Assembly: GCA_022825665.1 (NCBI GenBank)
Contig: JAJDWI010000102.1
Location: 1 to 40,248, forward strand
Origin: Candidatus Poribacteria bacterium
GTDB taxonomy: Bacteria; Poribacteria; WGA-4E; WGA-3G
Length of the DNA: 40,248 nucleotides
Direction of reading: 5' to 3'
The notes below the pieces were generated by a model. The model saw nothing but the letters and a program-made list of their open reading frames with translations, searched no databases and had not been told where the DNA came from. Both the position numbers and the translations under genes were made by a program. Shown here in pieces: positions 21,980-38,775 of the stretch. Each line of letters starts with the position of its first letter. Positions within the stretch are counted from its first letter, which is position 1.

Positions 21980-22008
21980 TTGATATGTAAGTCATAAATA
22001 GGTATAAT
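21980..22008 (+). promoter_or_regulatory. Near-consensus promoter of the DUF1326-like gene
   Basis: TTGATA (21980-21985) and TATAAT (22003-22008) lie 17 nt apart. Transcription would start near 22015, with a leader of about 60 nt and GGGAG 8 nt before the ATG at 22077. Confidence 0.65.
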
Positions 22009-22076
22009 TGAAACAGATAGCTCAGCATTTCAATTTTCTGAATACAGGTTACAGAACACATAAGGGAGATAATATT

Positions 22077-22730
22077 ATGAAAAATGTATTAGTTTTTGCG
22101 ACGATAACACTTGTCATAGTAACTGGGTTTGCATTAGCTACAGAAAACCCAAATGTACAAGGTGAGTACATCGAAGTCCGTTCAGCAAGTGTTTATGTAG
22201 GAGCATGCCATTTCGGTTCGGAATATGTTGAAGGTGGTAAAGAGGCAACCCTGATATGGAACATCCAACATGGTAGTTGGAATAACGTAAAGTTAGATGG
22301 TTTAACCGTAGTTGCTGTTATCAGTGCAAAAAACAACCTTGCAATTGATAACGATACCCGAAGAAGTGTATTGTACGTGGACAGTAAAGCCACTCCAGAA
22401 CAATATTCTGCTATTAGCAAAATGTTGACTACCAAACATACAATAGCTGTAGGCAGTGTTGTTGCGACCCAAAAAGTTCCTATTAAATACACAAAAAAGG
22501 GAACAAAATATGATGTGTCTGTTGGGAAAACACTGGCATTATCTGTGAATCGTTACCCATGTGCAAAATGTACGCAACCGCATCAAATTTGGTATGAACC
22601 ATTGACTGATGTTAAAGAGGTAATTGTTGGAAAATCGGAAATCTATAGTTATAAAGACAATTATTTACCTGTAACATGGCAGCAAGGAGATCCAGCCAAT
22701 AACGTCTTTGTCGGTGCTTTTTCTATGTAG
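22077..22730 (+). CDS. Exported DUF1326-like protein
   Basis: A 217-residue protein with a signal peptide (MKNVLVFATITLVIVTGFAL, then ATEN). The mature part follows the DUF1326 pattern: GEYIEVRSASVYVGACHFGSE, a Trp-containing strand (LIWNIQHGSW), VVAVISAKNNLA and RRSVLYVDSKATPEQYS. Two further cysteines occur in YPCAKCTQPHQIWY. The family has no established function. I chose ATG 22077 over a TTG frame opening at 22008, since GGGAG lies 8 nt upstream and the signal peptide then begins at once. It has its own promoter (21980-22008). A hairpin (22740-22769) follows. Confidence 0.8.
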   Translation: MKNVLVFATITLVIVTGFALATENPNVQGEYIEVRSASVYVGACHFGSEYVEGGKEATLIWNIQHGSWNNVKLDGLTVVAVISAKNNLAIDNDTRRSVLYVDSKATPEQYSAISKMLTTKHTIAVGSVVATQKVPIKYTKKGTKYDVSVGKTLALSVNRYPCAKCTQPHQIWYEPLTDVKEVIVGKSEIYSYKDNYLPVTWQQGDPANNVFVGAFSM

Positions 22731-23059: not shown

Positions 23060-23911
23060 GTGACCACTGATAATTCATTGGAGAGACGAAGAAATAAACT
23101 GACTCCAGAGGAAAAAACATCGTGGAAGGAAAACGGTTATTTTGTACGCCATAACGTTTTTACAAACGAAGAAAACGATATATTAAGTCAAGTAGCTGAT
23201 GATATTGCAATCGGTAAACTCCCATTTCCCAGCCATCGAATCTTTCGAAATGCTTTAGTCCGAGATGGAAAAGTTGAAGCTTCGGGTATCTATGCAATGC
23301 ATAGTATCCATCAAATGAATCTCTACTCTCCTGAATTTCTTGACCGTACTCGTGATCCAAGACTAACAGAACCTATTGTTGACCTCCTCGGACCGGACAT
23401 TCTCGGTTTAAACAGTCTTTATATATGGAAACCACCTAAGATTGGTTTAGGTTTCCCGTGGCATCAAGACAGATGGTATACTCAACCTCAGTTTAAAACC
23501 AAAACCACAGTTGGAACGTGGACTGCGATTGATGCAGCAGATAAAGAAAACGGGTGCCTATACGTTATACCCGGTAGCCACAAGTTCGGTATTCTTGAGC
23601 ATATTGAGCTTGAAGGTTCACAACAACAGGAGTTTAGAAAAGCAGTCGGAGCACGGGACGAAGATGGGGTTGCAGTTGAATTACCACTGGGAAGTGTCAT
23701 CTTTTTTGACAACCGAATCCTTCATAAGAGTACTGATAACAATAGTGAACGCTTTCGACGAAGTAACATCGCACATTATATCAGTGCAAAAGCAGAACGG
23801 ATTCACCATAAGAATTACATGCGTCCACTAATGTGGATTAGGGGTGAAATATACCCAACGTTGTCTGAGGGTGTCTACCGTGAGGTATTACCCTTTACAG
23901 AACCCGATTAG
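23060..23911 (+). CDS. PhyH-family Fe(II)/2-oxoglutarate dioxygenase, tandem copy 1
   Basis: A 283-residue cupin-fold dioxygenase of the phytanoyl-CoA hydroxylase (PhyH) family, which couples 2-oxoglutarate decarboxylation to hydroxylation of a substrate. The iron facial triad is His135 and Asp137 (FPWHQDRWY) with His222 (LHKSTDN); Arg231-Arg234 supply the 2-oxoglutarate arginine. The N-terminus is TPEEKTSWKENGYFVRHNVF. Motifs NALVRDGK and ENGCLYVIPGSHK are shared with the three other copies downstream. It starts at GTG with AGGAG close by. The substrate is unknown; sponge- and ocean-associated lineages are known to carry many such genes. Confidence 0.9.
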   Translation: MTTDNSLERRRNKLTPEEKTSWKENGYFVRHNVFTNEENDILSQVADDIAIGKLPFPSHRIFRNALVRDGKVEASGIYAMHSIHQMNLYSPEFLDRTRDPRLTEPIVDLLGPDILGLNSLYIWKPPKIGLGFPWHQDRWYTQPQFKTKTTVGTWTAIDAADKENGCLYVIPGSHKFGILEHIELEGSQQQEFRKAVGARDEDGVAVELPLGSVIFFDNRILHKSTDNNSERFRRSNIAHYISAKAERIHHKNYMRPLMWIRGEIYPTLSEGVYREVLPFTEPD

Positions 23912-23955
23912 AATAATAATGAATGACTAAAAACCTGAACTAAATAGGAGTATGA

Positions 23956-24813
23956 GTGAAAGCAAATATAACATCTGAAGAACGGAAGTTTAGATTGACA
24001 TCTGAAGAACGATGCTCTTGGGAAGAAAATGGATACTTTGTCCGCCTTAACGTTTTTACAAAAGAAGAAAACGACATCTTAGCGCAAATCGCTGATGACA
24101 TTGTTGATGGTAAAATCCCCTTTCCAGATTATCATATTTTTGAAAATGCATTAGTCAGAGACGGTAAAGCCGAAGCACAAGGAATCTACGCAATGCACAA
24201 TATCCAATATGTAAGCTGCAATTGTCAAGAATTCCTTGATCGTACGCGCGATCCCCGACTCACCGATCCGGTAGTTGACATACTCGGTCCAGATCTACTT
24301 GGTCTCAACAATCTATATATTTGGAAACCACCAAAAATCGGTTTAGGATTTCCATGGCATCAAGATAAATGGTATTTTAACTATCAATATAAAACTGGAA
24401 CAACAGTCGCAACATGGTCTGCGATTGATGACGCTGATGAAGAAAACGGGTGTCTATACGTTATACCCGGTAGCCACAAATATGGTGTTCGAGAGCATAA
24501 GGAACTTGAAGGTTCACAGCAAGGTGAATTCAAACAGGCAGAAGGTGCTCGTGATGAAGATGGTGTTGCTGTAGAAGTACCTGCTGGAGCGGTAATCTGG
24601 TTTAATAGTCAAGTCTTACATAAAAGCACTGATAACCACAGTTCACGTTTTAGACGAGCGAATATAGCACACTACATGAGAGCAGATGGTGAATGGACCC
24701 GTCCTGAGGCGGTAAATGAAAAACGACCCCCTATGTGGATTAGTGGTAAAACCTTTCCTGCAATGGGGAACGAAGTTCAACATGAGGTTATACCGATTAT
24801 AGAATCAGATTAA
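23956..24813 (+). CDS. PhyH-family dioxygenase, tandem copy 2
   Basis: A 285-residue paralog of the preceding gene, collinear with it through position 222 without gaps. The triad is His135, Asp137 (FPWHQDKWY) and His222 (VLHKSTDN), with a conserved FRR after it. Substrate-lining stretches differ from copy 1, for example YAMHNIQYVSCNCQEF where copy 1 has YAMHSIHQMNLYSPEF, and FNYQYKTGTTVATWS where copy 1 has TQPQFKTKTTVGTWT. The start is GTG with ATAGGAG upstream, the same arrangement as copy 3. It lies 44 nt after copy 1 and 22 nt before the pectate lyase gene. Confidence 0.9.
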   Translation: MKANITSEERKFRLTSEERCSWEENGYFVRLNVFTKEENDILAQIADDIVDGKIPFPDYHIFENALVRDGKAEAQGIYAMHNIQYVSCNCQEFLDRTRDPRLTDPVVDILGPDLLGLNNLYIWKPPKIGLGFPWHQDKWYFNYQYKTGTTVATWSAIDDADEENGCLYVIPGSHKYGVREHKELEGSQQGEFKQAEGARDEDGVAVEVPAGAVIWFNSQVLHKSTDNHSSRFRRANIAHYMRADGEWTRPEAVNEKRPPMWISGKTFPAMGNEVQHEVIPIIESD

Positions 24814-24835
24814 CTATTGACGAAGGGACGCTATC

Positions 24836-25882
24836 ATGAAACTACGACTTACTACCATTTATATCTTGCTTTTATTGCTTGTGCCATCTACTGATGCAAA
24901 CGTGCCTTCTAAATACGCGAAGCAGACCATTGAATGGTTCAAAAGCGAGGAGGGTCGTCGTATTGCTGACAACGTTCTTACATGGCAAACGCAGCATGGT
25001 GGTTTTCCCAAGAGTAGAGACACGGCCTCAAAGCCGTATAAAGGTAAAAGTGAGGATCTGCACGCAACATTTGACAACGGTGCGACCATAGACGAACTAA
25101 GGTTTCTTGCACGTGCGTATAGTGCAACAAACGAACCACGTTACAAACAAGGATTTCTCAAAGGTCTTTCGCATATTCTTGAAGCACAATATCCGAATGG
25201 TGGGTGGCCCCAGTATTATCCACTGAGCAAAAGTTACCATCGTCACATCACTTTCAATGACGATGTTATGGCACGCATTCTCGGACTTCTCCGGGATGTC
25301 TCTGTCTCTTCCGACTATCAGTTCCTGAAAATGGAGGACCGCGCTAAGGTTGAAGCTGCTGTAACCAAAGGCATTGACTGCATCCTACGCACACAAATAA
25401 AGCAGAATGGTAAACTCACTGCATGGTGCGCGCAGCATGACGAGAAAACGCTTGAACCTGCGTGGGGACGTTCCTATGAGCCACCATCAATTTCAGGTGC
25501 AGAAAGTGTTGATGTTGTGCGATTCCTGATGTCACTCGAAGAACCCACACCAGAGATAATCGCTGCTATTGAAGGGTCGGTCGAATGGTTCAGGAGCGTC
25601 GCTATCAATGGCACTCGCCAAGAAAGGTTCACCAATGCAGAGGGACAGGAGGACAAACGGATCGTAGCAGATCCCGATGCGAGACCACTCTGGGCGCGTT
25701 TCTATGAGATTGGTAGTAACCGTCCAATATTTCTTGACCGAGACTCAGTCGTTCGCTACTCATTATCTGAGATCGGACAGGAACGTCGTACTGGATACGC
25801 CTACTACGGTAACTGGGCTGACAAACTCCTGACAGATGAGTATCCACGGTGGAGAGAAAAGCATAAGCTCCCTAAAAAATAA
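24836..25882 (+). CDS. Exported family-10 pectate lyase-like protein
   Basis: A 348-residue protein with a signal peptide (MKLRLTTIYILLLLLVPST, then DAN). The mature chain follows the polysaccharide lyase family 10 (Pec_lyase) pattern: LTWQTQHGGFPKS, ATFDNGATIDELRFLARAY, PNGGWPQYYPL, HITFNDDVMARIL, LTAWCAQHDEKTLEPAW, SISGAESVDVVRFLM and PLWARFYEIGSNRPIFLDRD. These enzymes cleave pectate by beta-elimination. It would act outside the cytoplasm on uronate-containing polysaccharide. It interrupts the PhyH array. Hand-counted 60-nt blocks give 29, 32 and 35 G+C (25381, 25441, 25561), higher than the 21 and 28 counted at 24121 and 26101 in neighbouring genes, hinting at separate acquisition. Confidence 0.85.
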   Translation: MKLRLTTIYILLLLLVPSTDANVPSKYAKQTIEWFKSEEGRRIADNVLTWQTQHGGFPKSRDTASKPYKGKSEDLHATFDNGATIDELRFLARAYSATNEPRYKQGFLKGLSHILEAQYPNGGWPQYYPLSKSYHRHITFNDDVMARILGLLRDVSVSSDYQFLKMEDRAKVEAAVTKGIDCILRTQIKQNGKLTAWCAQHDEKTLEPAWGRSYEPPSISGAESVDVVRFLMSLEEPTPEIIAAIEGSVEWFRSVAINGTRQERFTNAEGQEDKRIVADPDARPLWARFYEIGSNRPIFLDRDSVVRYSLSEIGQERRTGYAYYGNWADKLLTDEYPRWREKHKLPKK

Positions 25883-25969
25883 CCGAATGTAATCCTGTTG
25901 TGTTTGTCGTGCCGTGTATAGTGTATGTGGAGTTAATAATACCATTTAAATATATCAATAGGAGAATCA

Positions 25970-26833
25970 GTGGACACGAATACAAAAACCGATGGACGGA
26001 AGTTTAGGTTAACCCCAGAAGAACGAGCCTCTTGGGAAGATAACGGGTATTTTATCCGTTACGACGTTTTTACAAATGAAGAAAACGACTCTTTAGCACA
26101 AGTCGCAGATGACATTGCCATCGGAAAACGTCCTTTCTGCGCCCAAAATGTCCATCAAAACGCATTAGTCAGAGATGGAAAAACAGAAGCAACTGGAATC
26201 AACGCGATGCACTGTATCCATCATATAAATCATTATTCACCTGAATTCCTTGAACGTACACGTGATCCACGTCTAACCGATCCTGTTGTTGACCTAATCG
26301 GACCAAATATCCTCGGTCTTAACAATCTATATATTTGGAAACCACCAAATATTGGTCTGGGTTTTCCATGGCATCAAGATAAATGGTATTTTAACAATAA
26401 CTATAAAAATGGCAAAACAGTAGGTACTTGGACTGCTGTTGACGACGCAGATAAGGGAAACGGGTGTCTATACGTCATACCCGGAAGTCATAAATTAGGT
26501 GTTCTTGAACATGAAGACTTGGAGGGATCACAACAAAATGAGTTTAAAATTGCACGCGAAGCACGAGACGAAGACGGTGTAGCTGTTGAAGTGCCATCGG
26601 GTGCAGTGGTTTGGTTTAACAATGAATTACTACACAAAAGCACTGACAACCAAAGTAACCGCTTTCGACGATGTAGTGTGGCACATTATATCAGTGGAAG
26701 TGCTGAACGCATACCCAAAAAACAGGCAAAATATGTTCGTCCTGTCATGTGGGTGCGGGGTGACACGTATTCAGAAAAGATGGAACCTGTTTATCGTGAC
26801 GCTTTACCTATCCCTGAAGAAATGGAGGATTAA
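25970..26833 (+). CDS. PhyH-family dioxygenase, tandem copy 3
   Basis: A 287-residue paralog with the same residue numbering as copies 1 and 2: His135, Asp137 (FPWHQDKWY) and His222 (LLHKSTDN). The substrate-side stretch reads NAMHCIHHINHYSPEF. The C-terminus, RPVMWVRGDTYSEKMEPVYR, is shared almost word for word with copy 4, so these two are the closest pair. It begins with GTG after AATAGGAGAATCA, nearly the same leader as copy 2, and its stop codon overlaps the start of copy 4 (TAATG). Confidence 0.9.
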   Translation: MDTNTKTDGRKFRLTPEERASWEDNGYFIRYDVFTNEENDSLAQVADDIAIGKRPFCAQNVHQNALVRDGKTEATGINAMHCIHHINHYSPEFLERTRDPRLTDPVVDLIGPNILGLNNLYIWKPPNIGLGFPWHQDKWYFNNNYKNGKTVGTWTAVDDADKGNGCLYVIPGSHKLGVLEHEDLEGSQQNEFKIAREARDEDGVAVEVPSGAVVWFNNELLHKSTDNQSNRFRRCSVAHYISGSAERIPKKQAKYVRPVMWVRGDTYSEKMEPVYRDALPIPEEMED

Positions 26834-27693
26834 TGAATACAAATAAAACAGAATTAAATCGGAAATACGCTCTCTCACCAGAAGATAAAATCTTCTGGGA
26901 AGAAAACGGTTACCTTGTGCGATACGACGTTTTCACTAAGGAAGAAAATGACATTCTTCGTAAAATCGCAGATGATATTGTTGAAGGAAAACACCCCTTT
27001 CCAACAGATAATATCAATCAAAACGCATTGGTAAGGGATGGAAAAATTGAAGCATCAGGTATACATGCAATGCACAAAATCCATCATGTGAGTTTTTATT
27101 GTCACGAATTCCTTGCGCGTGTACGTGATCCTCGACTAACAGATCCAATTGTCGACCTACTCGGTCCAAATTTGCTGAGTCAAGGAAATCTGTATATCTG
27201 GAAAGCCCCTAAAATTGGTTTAGGTTTCCCATGGCATCAAGATAAATGGTATTTTAATTGGCAGTATAAAACTGAAATGACTGTCGGAACATGGACAGCG
27301 ATTGATGCAGCTGACCAAGACAACGGATGTTTATATGTTATACCCGGAAGTCACAAATTAGGTATTCTTGAGCATGAAGACTTGGAAGGTCCACAACAAA
27401 ACGAGTTCAAAATAGCACGCGACGCAAAGGATGAAGATGGTGTCGCTGTTGAAGTGCCACCAGGAGGCGTAGTTTGGTTTAACAATCAGCTTCTACATAA
27501 AAGCACTGACAACCACAGTAATCGTTTTAGACGATGTAATGTAATTCATTATATTAGTGGAAATGCAGAACGAATTCCAAAGAAACAGGGAGCAACTATA
27601 CGTCCTGTCATGTGGGTTCGGGGTGAAACATATTCAGAAAAGATGGAACCGGTATATCGTGATATATTACCAATACCAGAAACCGAATCATAA
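26833..27693 (+). CDS. PhyH-family dioxygenase, tandem copy 4
   Basis: A 286-residue paralog, triad His135, Asp137 and His222. The ATG overlaps the stop of copy 3 by one base, so the two are translationally coupled. The substrate-side stretch reads HAMHKIHHVSFYCHEF. Differences from copy 3 cluster in residues 52-95 and the loop 112-118 (GPNLLSQ where copy 3 has GPNILGL), which points to changed substrate preference rather than decay. No stop or frameshift is seen. Confidence 0.9.
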   Translation: MNTNKTELNRKYALSPEDKIFWEENGYLVRYDVFTKEENDILRKIADDIVEGKHPFPTDNINQNALVRDGKIEASGIHAMHKIHHVSFYCHEFLARVRDPRLTDPIVDLLGPNLLSQGNLYIWKAPKIGLGFPWHQDKWYFNWQYKTEMTVGTWTAIDAADQDNGCLYVIPGSHKLGILEHEDLEGPQQNEFKIARDAKDEDGVAVEVPPGGVVWFNNQLLHKSTDNHSNRFRRCNVIHYISGNAERIPKKQGATIRPVMWVRGETYSEKMEPVYRDILPIPETES

Positions 27694-27860: not shown

Positions 27861-29615
27861 ATGACTAAATACATACACATTATTATGATTATAATGGTGT
27901 TTGTTCTATGTTTTGGAATAATCGTTACAACTCCTGCACAGAAACCTAATTTTCCCGATCAAATTCCAATAGTTGAACGTCCCTTTACAGATGATCCTGA
28001 CAAATTTACTTTCGCTATAATAGGCGATAAAACAGGCGGAGGATTAGATAAGTGGCATGTGTTTGATCGTGCTATAGATGAAATAAACACATTGAATCCT
28101 GATTTTGCCATCATGGTTGGTGACTTGATTCAAGGGGATACGACTGATACAGAACAACTTTCTACTGAATGGAAGGAGTTTTGGGAACACCAATCTGCAT
28201 TAGATATTCCGTTTCTCTCACTTCCCGGCAATCACGATATTACCAATCCAGTTATGTATGATTACTGGATAGAGAATTTAGGACGAACATATTACGCATT
28301 TACTTATAAGGATTGCTTATTTCTTTTGCTCAATACTGAGGAGTGGCATGCAAATAGTGGTGATTGGGTAAATTGGTTTGGAAAAGAGCAGATAAAATAT
28401 GCAAAATCACAATTAACACAACACGCAGATGTGCGGCACACATTCGTTCTTTTACATCGTCCGTTATGGCTCCAGAAAGATTCAGGTTGGGAGGAAATAG
28501 AAGAAGCACTCGGTAAAAGACCATACACAGTTTTTGCAGGACATTATCATAATCTTACACTTCATACTAAAAATGATCGTCGATATTTTGTACTTGGTGC
28601 AACAGGTGGTGGGTTCACACCACAGGAAGTCAAAGAATACGGTGCATTTGATCACTATAGCCTCGTAACTGTAGATAATGATGAAGTCAACGTTGCAATT
28701 ATTGAACCGGGTAACATACATCACGCGGATGTGTCAACATCTGCGTTCAAAGATAAGGTTTCAAAACTACTTGACTTTAAGATAGATTTTGATCTCAATA
28801 AAAACAGGTCTGTATCTGAAGGAAGACTTGATATTTCTCTCAATAATACACTTGAAAAACTAATGACACTTGAGATAAAGTTTGAGCAGAATGACAAATG
28901 GCAGATTACACCAAACCATTTATCTATTCAAGCAAAACCGGGACAAACATCAAAAACAAGTGTGACTCTCTCAGTTTCATCAACTGATTACCTACCTTTT
29001 CCCATCTATAAGCACTCTGTCCAGTATGGTGGTGAACAACTGTTGAGTGGAAGAAATCTGTATCACCCAATTGATAGAGTACACATGCGTGTCATAAAAT
29101 CTTGGATGTTGTTGGGACCTTTTGATCTTGGTATAGAAACTATACCTGTCAATTCAAAGCATATTCCTCAGAGTTTTCTTGATATTCCTTTACATCATAT
29201 CAATAGTGATAAAACCTATAATGGAAAACCGGGTGAAATTACATGGCAAGAACACGTATCTGAAAATGACAGGATAAAATTAGATGCTGTTTTTGAATAC
29301 GCAGAAATGGCTTACGGTTTTGGAATTACGCATATCAAGAGTCCAGATAACCGACGAATATTCGCACAGATTGGATGGGGAAGCAATCTCGGTAGAATTT
29401 ACCTAAACGGTGTTGAGATTCCGAGTGCCTCTATTCCTGGTGAAAACCTATATTCATGGTGGGCACACTTTGAATTGTCCTTGAAAAAAGGATGGAACAC
29501 CTTAACTATCCTATCAGGAGATTACAATGGATGGTGGGATTATCGTATGGAAGTTGCTGATCCTACGAAATCTCTTGAGTTTAACGTGAAACCAACTACC
29601 GAGGAAAACCAATAA
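27861..29615 (+). CDS. Exported calcineurin-like metallophosphoesterase with C-terminal beta-rich extension
   Basis: A 584-residue protein with an N-terminal signal or anchor (about 5-27). The metallophosphoesterase domain (about 48-265) shows Asp56 (IIGDKTGGG), Asp88 (MVGDLIQGD), Asn124-His125-Asp126 (LPGNHDI), His199 (LLHRPLW) and His228/His230 (FAGHYHN), a complete dimetal site except that the first motif is GDK rather than GD-x-H. The rest (about 270-584) is beta-rich and contains SWMLLGPFDLG and a Trp-rich end (YSWWAHFELSL, GDYNGWWDYRM), like a carbohydrate-binding or sandwich module, though I cannot name it. It lies 167 nt after the PhyH array. Substrate unknown. Confidence 0.85.
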   Translation: MTKYIHIIMIIMVFVLCFGIIVTTPAQKPNFPDQIPIVERPFTDDPDKFTFAIIGDKTGGGLDKWHVFDRAIDEINTLNPDFAIMVGDLIQGDTTDTEQLSTEWKEFWEHQSALDIPFLSLPGNHDITNPVMYDYWIENLGRTYYAFTYKDCLFLLLNTEEWHANSGDWVNWFGKEQIKYAKSQLTQHADVRHTFVLLHRPLWLQKDSGWEEIEEALGKRPYTVFAGHYHNLTLHTKNDRRYFVLGATGGGFTPQEVKEYGAFDHYSLVTVDNDEVNVAIIEPGNIHHADVSTSAFKDKVSKLLDFKIDFDLNKNRSVSEGRLDISLNNTLEKLMTLEIKFEQNDKWQITPNHLSIQAKPGQTSKTSVTLSVSSTDYLPFPIYKHSVQYGGEQLLSGRNLYHPIDRVHMRVIKSWMLLGPFDLGIETIPVNSKHIPQSFLDIPLHHINSDKTYNGKPGEITWQEHVSENDRIKLDAVFEYAEMAYGFGITHIKSPDNRRIFAQIGWGSNLGRIYLNGVEIPSASIPGENLYSWWAHFELSLKKGWNTLTILSGDYNGWWDYRMEVADPTKSLEFNVKPTTEENQ

Positions 29616-30358: not shown

Positions 30359-31150
30359 ATGGCTAACCTGAATTCATCGCAACTGCAAAATTGGAACAAT
30401 AACGGGTTTTTGAAAATTCCTCGCTATTTCACTACAAATGAGATTGAGGAGATACAACAGTGGGTTTTAGAAATCTCTTCTTGGGAACCGACAAATGACA
30501 AGTGGATGCACCACTATGAATCCACTCCTGATGGACCACGTTTGTCTCGAACGGAAAATTTTGTCCCATTCCATGACAATATGAGAACGACAGTTACATC
30601 TGGAAAAGTGATCAAAATTGTCTCAGAGTTAATGACTGAACCTGCAGTTCTCTATAAAGAAAAAATCAATTACAAATACCCAGGTGGTGGGGGATATGCT
30701 GCCCACCAAGATGCTCCCGCTTATGAATTTATTGATTTTCATATCACATGTCTGATTTCTGTGGATACAGCGACTCCAGAAAGTGGTTGTCTCTATTTTG
30801 CATCAGGTAGACATCAGGAAGGATTCATCGCGCTTGACGAAAAGGGTTGTGTCTCTCCTGAAACTGCCATAACAATGTCTTGGCAGCCTGTTCCAACAGA
30901 ACCAGGAGACATCCTGCTTTTTGGTTCATATATACCTCATAAAAGTCCTCCTAACCATTCAAATGAACCAAGACGGATCATATATCTCACATATAACGCA
31001 AAATCCCAAGGTGATTGGCGTGAGAAGTATTATGCTGACAAGAGAAAGGCATTCTCACAATATGCCTCAGATAGTAGAAAAAAAGATAAACAAATTAGCA
31101 AAATTGCACATTTTCGAGGGAATATCATAGAAAATGCAGAATTTGATTGA
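30359..31150 (+). CDS. PhnY-like Fe(II)/2-oxoglutarate dioxygenase
   Basis: A 263-residue PhyH-fold dioxygenase, distinct from the four tandem copies. The facial triad is His116 and Asp118 (GYAAHQDAPAY) with His194 (YIPHKSPPNHS); Arg205/Arg206 are candidates for 2-oxoglutarate binding. The gene overlaps by 17 nt an HD-domain oxygenase resembling PhnZ. In the characterised PhnY/PhnZ pathway the dioxygenase hydroxylates 2-aminoethylphosphonate at C1 and the HD oxygenase cleaves the C-P bond. The related TmpA/TmpB pair acts on trimethylaminoethylphosphonate. The function is inferred from the pairing and HQD-PAY motif; the exact phosphonate is open. It has its own promoter and a strong AGGAGG site. 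Confidence 0.75.
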   Translation: MANLNSSQLQNWNNNGFLKIPRYFTTNEIEEIQQWVLEISSWEPTNDKWMHHYESTPDGPRLSRTENFVPFHDNMRTTVTSGKVIKIVSELMTEPAVLYKEKINYKYPGGGGYAAHQDAPAYEFIDFHITCLISVDTATPESGCLYFASGRHQEGFIALDEKGCVSPETAITMSWQPVPTEPGDILLFGSYIPHKSPPNHSNEPRRIIYLTYNAKSQGDWREKYYADKRKAFSQYASDSRKKDKQISKIAHFRGNIIENAEFD

Positions 31151-31730
31151 TTACACTTTAAAACACGAATTGAACACTGCAACCCGACAACAGAAAATCC
31201 ACATTCTGTTTAACTATATGGAAAAACGTGGACAGTCGTTTTACGACGAAGTCGTTACTCAGTTGGAACATGCATTGCAATGTGCTGCGCTTGCAAGACG
31301 AAATAGCGCATCTCCTGAACAAATTACGAGTGCATTACTCCACGATATAGGACATTTTATCTTAGATGAACACAATGCTGATATTGACTTTCTTGAGACA
31401 GACCTGAACCATGAGGAAATTGGTGCTGAATATCTTGAACCTTTTTTCCCTAATGCTGTTACAACACCAATTCGGTTACATGTGCCAGCAAAAAGATATT
31501 TATGCTCTGTTGATACCACATATTACGATGGATTATCCGATGCATCAAAACGTAGTCTAAAGGTACAAGGAGGTCTCATGTCAGATGAAGAACAACTGGA
31601 TTTTGAAAAAATACCGCACTATCAAGATGCACTCACATTGCGTAAGTGGGACGATCAGGCTAAAGTTAGGGATTTAGAGACAGATGGGTTAGAAACTTAT
31701 AGCGAATTCGTGCTTCAGTGTTTAAAGTAG
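31134..31730 (+). CDS. PhnZ-like HD-domain diiron oxygenase (phosphonate C-P cleavage)
   Basis: A 198-residue HD-domain protein. The metal ligands fit PhnZ with a near-constant offset: His46, His70, Asp71, His93, His116 and Asp173 against recalled PhnZ positions 34, 58, 59, 80, 104 and 161. Glu39, His74 and Lys120 are also retained. The C-terminal LSDASKRSLKVQGG and LTLRKWDDQAK match the PhnZ-type signature, which ordinary HD phosphohydrolases lack. PhnZ cleaves (R)-1-hydroxy-2-aminoethylphosphonate to glycine and phosphate using O2. The tyrosine equivalent to PhnZ Tyr24 is Phe36 here, with Tyr37 next to it, so substrate or oxygen access may differ. It overlaps the dioxygenase gene by 17 nt. 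Confidence 0.8.
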   Translation: MQNLIDYTLKHELNTATRQQKIHILFNYMEKRGQSFYDEVVTQLEHALQCAALARRNSASPEQITSALLHDIGHFILDEHNADIDFLETDLNHEEIGAEYLEPFFPNAVTTPIRLHVPAKRYLCSVDTTYYDGLSDASKRSLKVQGGLMSDEEQLDFEKIPHYQDALTLRKWDDQAKVRDLETDGLETYSEFVLQCLK

Positions 31731-32956: not shown

Positions 32957-35900
32957 TTACAAAACATCCTGAAGAAAACGTGCTGTATGTGAATCTTTTA
33001 TCTCTGCAACATCTTCAGGGGTTCCCATTGCGACAAGATATCCACCCTCATCGCTTCCCTCAGGACCTAAATCAATAATCCAATCTGCAGATTTTATTAC
33101 ATCCAAATTGTGTTCAACAGCGACAATCGTATTTCCAGCATCTACAAGTTTATTTAAGACGTTGAGCAGTTTTTGGACATCATCAAAATGCAATCCTGTT
33201 GTAGGTTCATCCATGATATAGAGTGTGGTACCAGTTTGTTGTCGTGCAAGTTCCTTTGCCAGTTTCACACGTTGTGCCTCACCACCTGATAACGTAGTCG
33301 CTGCTTGTCCTAACTGGATATAATCCAAACCCACATCAGCTAATGTTTGGAGGGGTTTCTTAATACGCGCAACGTTGCTGAATAACTCTACAGCTTCCTG
33401 TACTGTCATCTGTAATACTTCAGCGATGTTTTTACCTTTATAACGCACCTCAAGAGTTTCCGCATTATATCCTGTGCTGTTACAATTATCACAAGGTATC
33501 CATACATCAGGTAGGAAATGCATTTCAACACGATTGAAACGTTGTCCATCACAGACCTCGCACTGTCCATACGAGAGATTAAAGCTGAAACGTCCCCTAT
33601 TAAATCCACGGAGTTTTGCATCTGGCAGATCAGCATATAGTTCTCTAATTTTCGTAAAAATATCTGTATAAGTAGCAGGATTTGATCGAGGTGTTTCACC
33701 TATTGGTTTTTGATCAATATGGATTAGTCTTTCAATTGGTGTGGTCCCCTGAATACTGTCATATTTCGCTTTTCCATAAGGATTATCTGCCCTCTCGTCT
33801 CCTTTTCTTATTGATTTACGAGTGTCTAAGGCAGGTCGAAGCGTGCCTTCAATTAAGGAACTCTTACCACAACCAGATACTCCTGTAACACATGTCAATG
33901 TTCCGTACGGTATTTGTATATCAATATTCTTTAGGTTGTTTGTTTTTGCTCCTAATAATTTCAACCATTTTCCTGATCCTTTCCGACGAACAGCAGGAAC
34001 AGGTATACGCAATTCATCAGAAAGATATGCCTGTGTCAATCCTTTAGTGGGTGTTGATTTTTCAACTACAGTAGAATCTCCTGAATCATCGGATTGTTTC
34101 TTCGTTGGACAAGATAACAGATCGCCATTGGTAAAAGCTTCTGGTGTCCCTATAGCAACTATTTCACCGCCTTGTTTACCCGCTTTAGGACCAAAATCTA
34201 TAACATGATCAGATGAAAGTATAGTATCTTTATCGTGCTCAACAACAAGTACACTATTTCCAATATCACGTAAATCTTTCATCGCAAGAATCAGACGTTC
34301 CTGGTCACGCGGATGTAAACCAATACTCGGTTCATCAAGAATATAAGTTACACCTGTGAGTCCGGTTCCAAGTTGACTTGCAAGACGTATTCTACGTATT
34401 TCACCCCCTGAGAGTGTTGGTGCAGGTCTATCTAAACCAAGATAGCCAAGACCAATATCCTCTAAGAACTTTAAACGAATCTGAATTTGACGCAGCAATT
34501 GTGCCTCAAACTCAGGCGAGGTATGGGTGTGGAGGGTTGGATGTGTTGCTCTGGATGTAGAAACATCTCTTATCTGGTTTCTCGCTGCAGCTGCTTCCTC
34601 TGCTCCAGCAGATGTCGTTAGATGTTTTTCTATATCCTCAATACGTGTATTAAAGAATGTATTGATATCGGATATTGACATAGCCATAAGTTCAGCAATT
34701 GTTTTATCACAGAACCTGACATTACGTGGAAATTCATTCAACCTTGTTCCATCACAGTCTTCGCAGATTTCATTGTTTTTTGTTAGAAGTTTACCGATAC
34801 CGTCACAAGTACTACACCCACCCAATTTATTATTAAAAGAAAAGTGTCGAGGTGTTAATTGAGAGAAATTCTGACCACAATTTGAACACATTGCATGTTC
34901 ACTAAAGAAAAACCTTTTAGAATTTCCTCTACTTACCTCCTCTTCAACAATCACAAAACCTTCACTTTCTATGAGTGCTAATTCAATTGCTTCGGTGAAA
35001 CGACTCATTTCCTCATCAATTAGTTTAAGACGGTCTATTACAAGAAAGACTTCATGTCGTTTACGTTTGTTTATAACAGGTGCTTCATCAAGCCGAAATA
35101 TTTCACCATCTATTTGTACACGCGCATATCCCATTCTCTGCAATCTGCGAAACGCATCCGAATAATCCTCATTTCCTTTTAAGCCGGGGGTACTTTCAGT
35201 CCCTATTACAACTTCAGATTCAGTCATCCGAGAAAGGTTATCCGAGATTTTCTGGATGTTTCGTATCTGGAAGTTTGTAAGCGGAGATAAGATATCCACT
35301 CTTTTTTCTTTGATGAGTTGTAAAACATGTTCAACAATCTGTTGTGCGGTCTGAGGATGAACTACTTCCTGACATGTCGGACAATGTGGTTGTCCCCATC
35401 TTGCATAGAGCGTGCGTAGACCATCATGGATCTCGGTAATGGTTGCAACTATAGAGCGCGGATTCTGACTTGGACTTGAGTGTGTAATCGCTATCGCTGG
35501 AGATAATCCTTCTATTTTCGATACTTTTGGTTTTTCCATACTTCCTATAAACTGACGTGCATAGGTGCTGAGTGTTTCAATATATCTTCGTTGTCCTTCT
35601 GCATATATTGTATCAAGCGCAAGCGATGTTTTACCAGAACCGCTAACACCTGTAAATGCGGTTAATCTCTGATGTGGTATTTCAATATCAATACTCTTCA
35701 GGTTGTTTTCTTCTGCACCTTGTACCAGAATAGACTTTGAAAATTGATAATCTGCTTTTTCATGAAGTGAATGTGGCATACCACCGTTATCTGTTATAAC
35801 GGGTTTATTATCAATTGATTTCCAAAGATCATATTCACCTTGCAGTGCTTTACCCGTATATGATTCAGGAATAGCTGAAACTTCTTCAGGTGTTCCCACA

Positions 35901-38707
35901 GCTACAATTTCACCACCACCGATACCTCCCTCAGGTCCTAAATCAATCAGATAATCAGCAGAATTAATTACCTCAAGATTGTGTTCAACGACAACCACAG
36001 TGTTACCATCATCAACTAACCTGTGCAGAATTGTTAACAGTTTATTTACATCGTCAAAGTGCAAACCAGTAGTAGGTTCATCAAGGATATAGAGAGTTTT
36101 ACCAGTACTACGTTTTGAGAGTTCTTTTGAGAGTTTGATCCGTTGCGCTTCACCCCCTGACAACGTAGGAGCAGGTTGTCCAAGTTTGATATAATCCAAA
36201 CCTACATCGTGTAGTAGTTGTAATCCTCTGGAAATTTTTGGTAAATCAGCGAAATGTTGAAGTGCAGTATCAATGTCCATTTCAAGCACATCTGAAATGT
36301 TTTTATCTTTATATTTTATCGCAAGTGTTTCATTGTTATACCGTTTTCCATTACAAACATCACATTCTACCCAGACATCTGCAAGAATACCCATGTCGAT
36401 TTTTTTAGCACCATTACCAGAACAGGCTTCACATCTTCCACCTGGAACATTAAAGCTAAATCGTCCAGGTTTATACCCGCGCAGTTTTGCATCAGGTAAG
36501 TTAGTATAGAAGGATCGAATTGCATCAAAAACTTTTGTATATGTTGCCGGATTTGATCGAGGCGTACGTCCTATTGGTGCCATATTGATATTTATTATTT
36601 TGTCTATCACTTCGGATACGTCAACAATCTCTCCATTTTCTATTCCCTGTATTCTATCGTAATCTCCAGGGATAGTCTTTGCTCGCATAAGGTCTCTTGC
36701 AAGTGCACAATATAGAATATCGTGTATAAGTGAACTTTTACCAGAACCACTCACTCCTGTTACACAACAGAGAGTTCCTAAAGGTATTTTTGGACTTATT
36801 TCCTTTAAGTTGTTCTGTCGCGCGCTGCAGATTTGCACCCATTTATCACCTGTGGGACGACGCGATTCTGGATGAACTATCTCTTTCTCACCTCTAAGAT
36901 ACTGAGCAGTTAATGAGTTTGTGTCTTTTATGATTTGGTCTGGTGTTCCTATGCCTGTTATCTCTCCACCGCGTAAGCCAGCACCTGGACCAAAATCAAC
37001 TATCATATCTGCAACTAACATTGTTGCTTCATCATGTTCAACAACAATTACTGTATTACCTTGATTGCGGAGATTCATTAAGGTCTTTAGCAATCCCGCA
37101 TGGTCGCGTGGGTGTAGACCAATACTCGGTTCATCAAGAACATAAGTCACATCGCGCAGACCTGCACCAACTTGACTCGCTAACCGTATCCGTTGTGCTT
37201 CTCCACCTGATAAAGTCGGGGCAGATCGCGATAATGTAAGGTAACCTAATCCGACATCCATTAGAAATCCAAGACGTGAACGAATTTCTTTCAACAACTC
37301 AGTAGCGATAAACGCCTGTTTTTCTGGAAGTTCAAGGGTATTGAAATAGTTAGAAGCATCTTGAATGGACATATCCAGAACTTCAGTGATATTCGTTCCA
37401 TCAATTGTCACACACTTCACTACCTGATTCAAACGCGTTCCTCCACACTCTTGACAGGGCATCTTGATAAAGTAATCGGGAAGATATGATTCTCCATCTT
37501 CTCCCACACTTAACGAAAAATATTGTTGTTCATGAGCGGGAATGAGTCCTTGAAATCTACCTCTGAATTTCTGAATTCGTTTCCTATATTGAGAGGGTTT
37601 TGAAAATGTGAGGACGGTATCGCCAGTACCATAAAGAATCGCTTGTTGCTGTTCAGGTGTAAGGTCTTTCCAAGGAGTATCTTGATTGAATCCGAGATGT
37701 TCTGATAATGTCTGAATTACTATTTTCTCATTCTGTCCAGGTTTCTCCCATAGTAGTAAGGCACCATCTAAGATACTCTTATTTTCATCTTCAATGATTA
37801 ATTTTGGAGAAATCGCCATTTGTACACCTAATCCACGACAATGTTTACACATTCCATACGGACTGTTGAATGAAAAGTGACGAGGTTCAGGAATATCGTA
37901 ACTAATTTGACAACTCATGCATGTATGTTGCCTACTAAATAGTAAATCTTTACCTTCTTGTGCTTTTTGTGAGGAGCTGCTGTCTGAAGACACAACATTG
38001 ACTATAAGACTGTCATCTCCCAGAGAAAGTGCTGTTTCAACTGCTTCAGTAACACGACTATGTATGTTATCCTTTATGATAATTCTATCTACTACAAGAT
38101 CTATGTTGTGTCGTTGATTTGGATTGAGCGCAATATTGGAACTGATTTCATGCACTTCACCATCAATTCGCGCACGCACAAACCCCATTTTACGTGCATC
38201 TGACAATTCTCTTCTGTACTCACCGCGTCTACCTTTGACGATAGGTGCTAATATCATGAGACGAGTACGTGGTGGAAAACTAAGGATGTGTGAGACTATA
38301 TCAGCAATTGTTTGTGCCCCTACCAATTCTCCACATTCAAGACAGTGGAATTCACCTGCGCGAGCAAATAACACACGTAAATAGTCGTAGATTTCTGTGA
38401 CGGTAGCTACCGTTGATCGGGGATTGTGACCTGATGAACCTTGATCAATAGCAATGGAAGGTGACAAACCTACAATCTTGTCAACTTCGGCTTTTCCAAG
38501 TTGACCTAAAAACTGACGCGCGTATGCTGAGAGGGATTCAATATATCGTCGTTGTCCTTCTGCATATAGTGTATCAATAGCAAGTGATGATTTTCCTGAT
38601 CCACTTACTCCAGTGAAGACTATAAGTTTATCTTTCGGAAGTCGAATATCTATATTTTTTAGGTTGTGTTCTCGCGCGCCGTATACTTCAATTGACGCTT
38701 CTGCCAT
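32957..38707 (-). CDS. uvrA: Tandem (double-length) excinuclease ABC subunit A
   Basis: A 1916-residue protein made of two complete UvrA units in one chain, about twice the usual 940. UvrA recognises DNA damage for nucleotide excision repair. Four Walker A motifs occur: GVSGSGKSS (about 33), GVSGSGKSS (about 650), GVSGSGKTS (about 1020) and GVSGCGKSS (about 1610). Four ABC signatures follow: LSGGEAQRI at about 500, 850 and 1806, and LSGGEIRRI at about 1430. Both halves keep UvrA zinc modules (CEAC...CDVC; CEVC...CDNC). The junction is near residue 985. The second half has an extra Ala/Thr/His-rich insert before its first signature and a Ser/Asp-rich insert near its middle. ATG 38707 has GAGG 9 nt upstream. 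Chlamydia is known to have a similar fused UvrA. Confidence 0.95.
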   Translation of the reverse strand: MAEASIEVYGAREHNLKNIDIRLPKDKLIVFTGVSGSGKSSLAIDTLYAEGQRRYIESLSAYARQFLGQLGKAEVDKIVGLSPSIAIDQGSSGHNPRSTVATVTEIYDYLRVLFARAGEFHCLECGELVGAQTIADIVSHILSFPPRTRLMILAPIVKGRRGEYRRELSDARKMGFVRARIDGEVHEISSNIALNPNQRHNIDLVVDRIIIKDNIHSRVTEAVETALSLGDDSLIVNVVSSDSSSSQKAQEGKDLLFSRQHTCMSCQISYDIPEPRHFSFNSPYGMCKHCRGLGVQMAISPKLIIEDENKSILDGALLLWEKPGQNEKIVIQTLSEHLGFNQDTPWKDLTPEQQQAILYGTGDTVLTFSKPSQYRKRIQKFRGRFQGLIPAHEQQYFSLSVGEDGESYLPDYFIKMPCQECGGTRLNQVVKCVTIDGTNITEVLDMSIQDASNYFNTLELPEKQAFIATELLKEIRSRLGFLMDVGLGYLTLSRSAPTLSGGEAQRIRLASQVGAGLRDVTYVLDEPSIGLHPRDHAGLLKTLMNLRNQGNTVIVVEHDEATMLVADMIVDFGPGAGLRGGEITGIGTPDQIIKDTNSLTAQYLRGEKEIVHPESRRPTGDKWVQICSARQNNLKEISPKIPLGTLCCVTGVSGSGKSSLIHDILYCALARDLMRAKTIPGDYDRIQGIENGEIVDVSEVIDKIININMAPIGRTPRSNPATYTKVFDAIRSFYTNLPDAKLRGYKPGRFSFNVPGGRCEACSGNGAKKIDMGILADVWVECDVCNGKRYNNETLAIKYKDKNISDVLEMDIDTALQHFADLPKISRGLQLLHDVGLDYIKLGQPAPTLSGGEAQRIKLSKELSKRSTGKTLYILDEPTTGLHFDDVNKLLTILHRLVDDGNTVVVVEHNLEVINSADYLIDLGPEGGIGGGEIVAVGTPEEVSAIPESYTGKALQGEYDLWKSIDNKPVITDNGGMPHSLHEKADYQFSKSILVQGAEENNLKSIDIEIPHQRLTAFTGVSGSGKTSLALDTIYAEGQRRYIETLSTYARQFIGSMEKPKVSKIEGLSPAIAITHSSPSQNPRSIVATITEIHDGLRTLYARWGQPHCPTCQEVVHPQTAQQIVEHVLQLIKEKRVDILSPLTNFQIRNIQKISDNLSRMTESEVVIGTESTPGLKGNEDYSDAFRRLQRMGYARVQIDGEIFRLDEAPVINKRKRHEVFLVIDRLKLIDEEMSRFTEAIELALIESEGFVIVEEEVSRGNSKRFFFSEHAMCSNCGQNFSQLTPRHFSFNNKLGGCSTCDGIGKLLTKNNEICEDCDGTRLNEFPRNVRFCDKTIAELMAMSISDINTFFNTRIEDIEKHLTTSAGAEEAAAARNQIRDVSTSRATHPTLHTHTSPEFEAQLLRQIQIRLKFLEDIGLGYLGLDRPAPTLSGGEIRRIRLASQLGTGLTGVTYILDEPSIGLHPRDQERLILAMKDLRDIGNSVLVVEHDKDTILSSDHVIDFGPKAGKQGGEIVAIGTPEAFTNGDLLSCPTKKQSDDSGDSTVVEKSTPTKGLTQAYLSDELRIPVPAVRRKGSGKWLKLLGAKTNNLKNIDIQIPYGTLTCVTGVSGCGKSSLIEGTLRPALDTRKSIRKGDERADNPYGKAKYDSIQGTTPIERLIHIDQKPIGETPRSNPATYTDIFTKIRELYADLPDAKLRGFNRGRFSFNLSYGQCEVCDGQRFNRVEMHFLPDVWIPCDNCNSTGYNAETLEVRYKGKNIAEVLQMTVQEAVELFSNVARIKKPLQTLADVGLDYIQLGQAATTLSGGEAQRVKLAKELARQQTGTTLYIMDEPTTGLHFDDVQKLLNVLNKLVDAGNTIVAVEHNLDVIKSADWIIDLGPEGSDEGGYLVAMGTPEDVAEIKDSHTARFLQDVL

Positions 38708-38775
38708 AGTATGTTTCCTCAAAAAAATGTATGTTGGTTATCAGTATAATAATTGCTTTTTACTTTGAACTAATA

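Follow-up and report, generated by a model that had tools for sequence, protein, structure and literature searches.

A conserved tandem array of four PhyH-type dioxygenase genes in Poribacteria: an old expansion with probably specialised copies

The expansion of PhyH-type oxygenases (PF05721) in Poribacteria has already been published (Kamke et al. 2014, PMC3909097). The part of that paper considered here counts and clusters the genes, which are present in very high copy number and are mostly uncharacterised, and notes a phnY/phnZ pair as well; a tandem array, separate orthologue groups and copy-specific pocket residues are not described in that part. Here we analyze a locus from the same phylum and Pfam family, located in a 40,248-nucleotide stretch of a Candidatus Poribacteria metagenome-assembled genome (contig JAJDWI010000102.1), hereafter referred to as the window. 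The locus is a head-to-tail array of four PF05721 (PhyH-type Fe(II)/2-oxoglutarate) dioxygenase genes at positions 23060-27693, with a PL10 pectate lyase gene between copies 2 and 3 (Table 1).

By sequence profile or fold, the nearest solved structures are human PhyH (2a1x; profile E 7e-25, fold rank 1) and PHYHD1 (2opw/3obz; profile E 8e-19, fold rank 18). The array copies have the HxD...H motif and the 2-oxoglutarate (2OG) Arg in common with both, but they are about 20-22% identical to these proteins and have other substrate-contact residues; in the case of PHYHD1, the differences affect the contacts other than the base-stacking position. The bacterial PhyH-type oxygenases EvdO2 and proline hydroxylase H11 are good fold matches (19-24% identity), but they serve antibiotic and amino-acid pathways, none of which is seen at the array. 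According to a 2025 report, PhyH-like enzymes, including one from Poribacteria, demethylate 2'-O-methyl nucleosides (PMC12709175). Judged by its description, which was the basis for the whole comparison, the bacterial PhyH-like enzyme FJS (858-bp open reading frame, ORF) is similar in length to the array copies and would share with them a Tyr at the base-stacking position. The AlphaFold2 model of copy 1 (54 rows; pLDDT 82.1, pTM 0.85) found its best solved matches in human PhyH, trypanosome RESC14, proline hydroxylase H11, EvdO2, SyrB2 and PHYHD1, all at 16-24% identity. The predicted structure thus confirms the fold and does not name the substrate. Two specific functions were rejected by their family models: the array copies score 40-50 bits as ectoine hydroxylases (TIGR02408, cut-off 336.5) and 36-46 bits as chlorinating enzymes (TIGR01762, cut-off 226.3), and they keep the iron-binding D137.

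We interpret the array as an old, vertically kept tandem expansion of a single Poribacteria-typical PhyH subfamily, the members of which would be working dioxygenases, each with its own substrate (probability about 0.62). All four copies match PF05721 with 104-121 bits over positions 1-213 (curated cut-off 22 bits), are 63-74% identical to each other and align without gaps through column 251. The iron ligands (H135, D137 and H222) and the 2OG-binding R233 are invariant in 151 of 151 subfamily proteins. The gene order DUF1326, copy 1, copy 2, [PL10], copy 3, copy 4 is repeated in many assemblies, complete chromosomes among them. The homology of the copies and the same order in dozens of other Poribacteria assemblies exclude a chance origin. 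The collinear array with its embedded lyase, the gapless alignment and the intact iron ligands, all proposed in a preliminary description of the locus, are therefore real, and the recurrence of the cluster in other genomes, on which that description had made its reading depend, is observed.

The array consists of an ordinary kind of gene for the phylum; it is the local cluster that is unusually tight and large. The genome of the window has 109 PF05721 domain matches, and dozens were found in each of the 21 genomes of the relatives search. At 60% identity, the 108 extracted PhyH proteins of the window genome fall into 96 families, the largest of which has five members: the four array copies and a stand-alone gene at G000:C158:4948-5586, which we named PhyS. 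This is the tightest PhyH subfamily of the genome (59-74% identity, with the next PhyH at 32% or less), and the array is the longest same-strand PhyH run. The second-longest run, three same-strand genes at G000 C98:30656-34158, lies outside the array subfamily. Two other loci (G000 C90:39302-40720 and C26:40919-42172) have frames of 608 and 540 residues with two PhyH domain matches each, likely fused tandem oxygenases. In a phylum-wide search, the array subfamily was present in 59 of 59 genomes of the family to which the window belongs and in 3 of 26 outside it, with one to seven copies per genome. The records that match the array are from 'Candidatus Poribacteria'; a look for close relatives beyond this phylum yielded plasmid records with at most about 35% identity. 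Stand-alone members have no consistent partner gene, their contexts including ROK and FGGY kinases, a sulfatase, GFO/IDH/MocA, Rieske/cytochrome b and the SRP receptor.

Phylogenetic analysis revealed that the copies have retained separate orthologue groups, since on a tree of 151 rows the five labels (the four copies and PhyS) need four changes, the minimum possible. The orthologues of copy 1 make up a single clade (20 rows, support 100), placed within the copy-3 lineage, and those of copy 2 have a clade of their own (45 rows, support 99); some copy-4 rows are found near copy 2 and PhyS. PhyS stands directly behind the array in two assemblies (L073:9738-10592 and L076:9756-10616), suggesting that it left the array in other lineages. 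Synonymous divergence (dS) between the window copies is 1.15-1.74, close to saturation for every pair, and when each copy is compared with its close orthologues, the ratio of nonsynonymous to synonymous divergence (dN/dS) is 0.065-0.154. Therefore, the duplications are old, and constraint acts on every copy. The preliminary description considered copies 3 and 4 to be the youngest pair. They are indeed the most similar in the window (74% identity), and their stop and start codons overlap, but a recent origin of the pair is not supported: its dS is 1.27 compared to 1.15 for copies 2 and 3, and copies 1 and 3 group together in a tree of 54 proteins (support 98/100). The idea is not fully excluded either, as enforcing the 3+4 grouping costs 31 log units and is not rejected (AU p 0.144). 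Around residues 251-270, copies 3 and 4 show a weak drop in synonymous difference, which might reflect local gene conversion.

To describe differences between the copies, we defined a copy-specific fixed position as one whose conservation reaches at least 90% in four or more of the five groups, with letters differing between groups. There are 33 such positions, many of which cluster at 82-87, 138-145 and 217-220. For example, position 84 is Gln in 45 of 47 copy-2 sequences and His in copies 1, 3 and 4. The sequence alignment and block diversity both confirm the two segments in which the copies had been described as divergent, 78-93 and 141-149. These segments contain 9 of the 33 positions compared to 2.9 expected (hypergeometric p 0.0007), an enrichment that is partly circular, as the segments had been picked from four of the tested sequences. 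When only columns variable between the window copies are considered, copy-specific fixation is found in 9 of 18 inside the segments and in 20 of 122 outside (Fisher p 0.003). Diversity within and between copies is 0.09 and 0.60 at 81-90, 0.15 and 0.46 at 141-150, and 0.13 and 0.44 at 211-220; the corresponding values for the HxD block (131-140) are 0.02 and 0.06. Differences between copies also occur in the C-terminal 40 residues. The segments may well coincide with substrate contacts, because positions 118 and 140 and, provided that the alignment offset stays ungapped, 81 and 84 correspond to ribose and base contacts of PHYHD1 obtained by docking.

These features are consistent with the following mechanism. 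In each copy, H135, D137 and H222 would hold iron and R233 would bind 2OG; the retained Asp speaks against a halogenase. Copy-specific residues would let each enzyme grip its own substrate; they are located in the strand and helix at 81-90, in the loop that follows HxD (138-149) and in the strand leading to the distal His (211-220). Fe(II), 2OG and O2 would then support hydroxylation of a cytosolic small molecule, leading to demethylation if the attacked carbon is beside a heteroatom and otherwise to a simple hydroxylated product. Together, the four enzymes would most likely represent a panel for related cytosolic small molecules. It is conceivable, though doubtful, that this is a dedicated panel with pockets fixed before the species diverged, serving a defined group of related compounds derived from sponges or detritus (e.g. 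O-methylated nucleosides or sugars) as an undescribed catabolic module.

Several considerations weigh against specialised copies. The pocket positions were placed by alignment with PHYHD1 and by secondary structure, and the copy-fixed residues could in part represent drift after duplication or protein-protein contacts. In addition, copies have been lost independently (copy 1 is present in 17 of the 39 listed arrays and copy 3 is absent in about a third), so that the four do not make up an obligatory set. It might be argued that all four copies have the same function and are retained for dosage or to allow expression under different conditions. Such an explanation would fit the common fold family, the identical iron and 2OG ligands, the strong purifying selection on all copies and the range of one to seven copies per genome. 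Yet residues 81-90, where the copies diverge most from each other, belong to the best conserved stretches within each copy, and separate copy identities have been kept across species despite saturated synonymous sites; we thus regard equivalence as unlikely. The invariant ligands, dN/dS of 0.07-0.15 in close pairs and segments that are conserved within copies but differ between them argue for specialised pockets and against mere gene dosage, as far as can be judged from sequence. The preliminary description, which proposed retained catalysis with divergent pockets, is supported to the same extent; the uniform selection on identical pockets that it had named as the opposite outcome is not what we see, as purifying selection acts on all copies and the pocket segments are nevertheless copy-specific.

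As for the reaction, the best lead appears to be the report on nucleoside demethylation (PMC12709175), although the contact residues match only partly. If the copies were free-nucleoside 2'-O-demethylases like FJS and PHYHD1, each would be tuned to a different O-methylated nucleoside. A Poribacteria PhyH-like enzyme is active in that report, and FJS is said there to have similar sequences in Poribacteria. The docked ribose and base contacts are K102, H105, Q139 and F161, with Tyr replacing the base-stacking F161 in bacterial demethylases (PMC12709175). Y140, invariant in the 151 proteins, aligns to F161, and H105 aligns to position 84 provided that the offset of 21 stays ungapped. With the same proviso, K102 would face His81, and Q139 aligns to Asn/Gly118, neither being a match. 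W259, nearly invariant in the subfamily, may correspond to the contact W277. Moreover, with about 100 PhyH proteins per Poribacteria genome the tested enzyme may belong to another subfamily, and kinship to FJS was judged from its description rather than its sequence. On balance, we consider this assignment distinctly unlikely. A role in phosphonate oxidation is highly improbable. The array copies would in this case hydroxylate phosphonates together with the PhnY*-PhnZ-like pair that is present downstream of the array in many genomes, and phnY/phnZ in Poribacteria were described by Kamke et al. (2014). However, on the PhnY* methylphosphonate hydroxylase model (NF052437, cut-off 500) the copies score 34-39 bits, by which this function was rejected for them, compared to 364 bits for the downstream gene, and PhnY*-like genes follow the array in 11 of 17 loci only. 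Quite improbable, too, is a single pathway in which the array and PL10 degrade a methylated or otherwise modified uronic-acid polysaccharide. PL10 is indeed inside the array at 18 of 39 scored loci and beside stand-alone subfamily members at four. Nevertheless, 21 of the 39 arrays persist without an intact PL10, one of them with a truncated copy, and PL10 also occurs alone elsewhere. PL10 has a hydrophobic N-terminus that is likely a signal peptide, whereas no such peptide is seen in the oxygenases, so the proteins probably reside in different compartments.

The membership of PL10 in its family is clear (343 bits on TIGR02474, cut-off 189.8; 362 bits on PF09492, cut-off 22), and it aligns with the solved pectate lyases 1gxm and 1r76 over the catalytic domain, differing from the rest of the family by its facultative position inside an oxygenase array. 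In one otherwise intact array (L040:9802-9981) the last 60 residues of PL10 are left between copies 2 and 3; PL10 has therefore been lost from the array at least once. In a midpoint-rooted tree, the PL10s beside PhyS (4 loci) and two stand-alone PL10s nest in the clade of array PL10s, and the other stand-alone ones are basal, which shows that PL10 moves between loci. Among the 24 family genomes searched, PL10 is in the array in some, elsewhere in others and missing in the rest, whereas the oxygenase subfamily is found throughout the family. PL10 has a third-position GC content (GC3) of 0.436 compared to 0.28-0.34 in its neighbours. This alone does not show a recent foreign insertion, as the GC content of PL10 exceeds that of the surrounding sequence in nearly all of these genomes and the array PL10s fall in a Poribacteria clade. 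PL10 would be a lyase, secreted or periplasmic, that joined the array and was repeatedly lost or moved, a neighbour outside the oxygenase mechanism. A literature search for a combined PhyH and pectate lyase cluster found nothing relevant.

Table 1. Features of the array and its surroundings in the window
Feature	Position	Strand	Remarks
DUF1326 protein	22008..22730	+	conserved neighbour upstream of array; PF07040 E 5e-19
PhyH dioxygenase copy 1	23060..23911	+	283 aa; GTG start; AGGAG leader; PF05721 E 1.4e-29
PhyH dioxygenase copy 2	23956..24813	+	285 aa; GTG start; AGGAG leader; PF05721 E 2.2e-34
PL10 pectate lyase	24836..25882	+	facultative array member; PF09492 (Pec_lyase) E 2.4e-108
PhyH dioxygenase copy 3	25970..26833	+	287 aa; GTG start; AGGAG leader; PF05721 E 1.1e-31; orthologues in other Poribacteria
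PhyH dioxygenase copy 4	26833..27693	+	286 aa; PF05721 E 1.5e-34; orthologues in other Poribacteria
Calcineurin-like metallophosphatase	27861..29615	+	variable neighbour; NF008359 E 1e-6; PF12850 E 0.003, below cut-off
PhnY*-like PhyH (methylphosphonate hydroxylase type)	30359..31150	+	outside array subfamily; NF052437 E 4e-109, 364 bits, below curated 500
PhnZ-like HD-domain mixed-valent iron oxygenase	31134..31730	+	PhnY* partner; NF052439 E 4e-83, 278 bits, below curated 300

The intergenic gaps in the array are 44, 22 and 87 bases, followed by a one-base TAATG overlap of copies 3 and 4. This spacing would fit one transcript, and the array is probably a single operon. Copies 2 and 3 do have GTG starts with AATAGGAG leaders, as noted in the preliminary description, but the suggestion that the duplicated unit included the ribosome site is not supported, since copy 1 has the same leader and start, and AGGA(G) also precedes unrelated neighbours. 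Upstream, the DUF1326 gene precedes nearly all recovered arrays. Downstream sequence of 6 kb or more is available for 17 arrays, 9 of which are followed by a metallophosphatase (>50% identity). With PL10 in 18 of 39 arrays, the proposed coupling of the array to the lyase and the metallophosphatase is weak; joint action with PL10 is possible but not indicated. The PhnY*-like gene is a clear relative under the equivalog cut-off. With the HD-domain gene it forms a pair (30359-31730) resembling PhnY*/PhnZ phosphonate oxidation, the same kind of pair as described for the phylum by Kamke et al. Further along, on the minus strand (32957-38722), a single 1921-residue ORF looks like a head-to-tail fusion of two UvrA-like excinuclease subunits.

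Poribacteria devote an unusually large share of their genes to PhyH oxygenases. The array is real, old and conserved, probably specialised, and represents a well-defined local case of the oxygenase expansion known from this sponge-dwelling group; its subfamily is present in every sampled member of the family. Since the active-site linings are each preserved in their own distinct form, the four oxygenases probably act on different but related small molecules. As a test set they are tractable, being close paralogues with a common scaffold that have long been conserved and differ at a limited number of copy-fixed sites, many of them flanking the active site. Once the substrate of one copy is found, the specificity of the remaining three could be tested directly.

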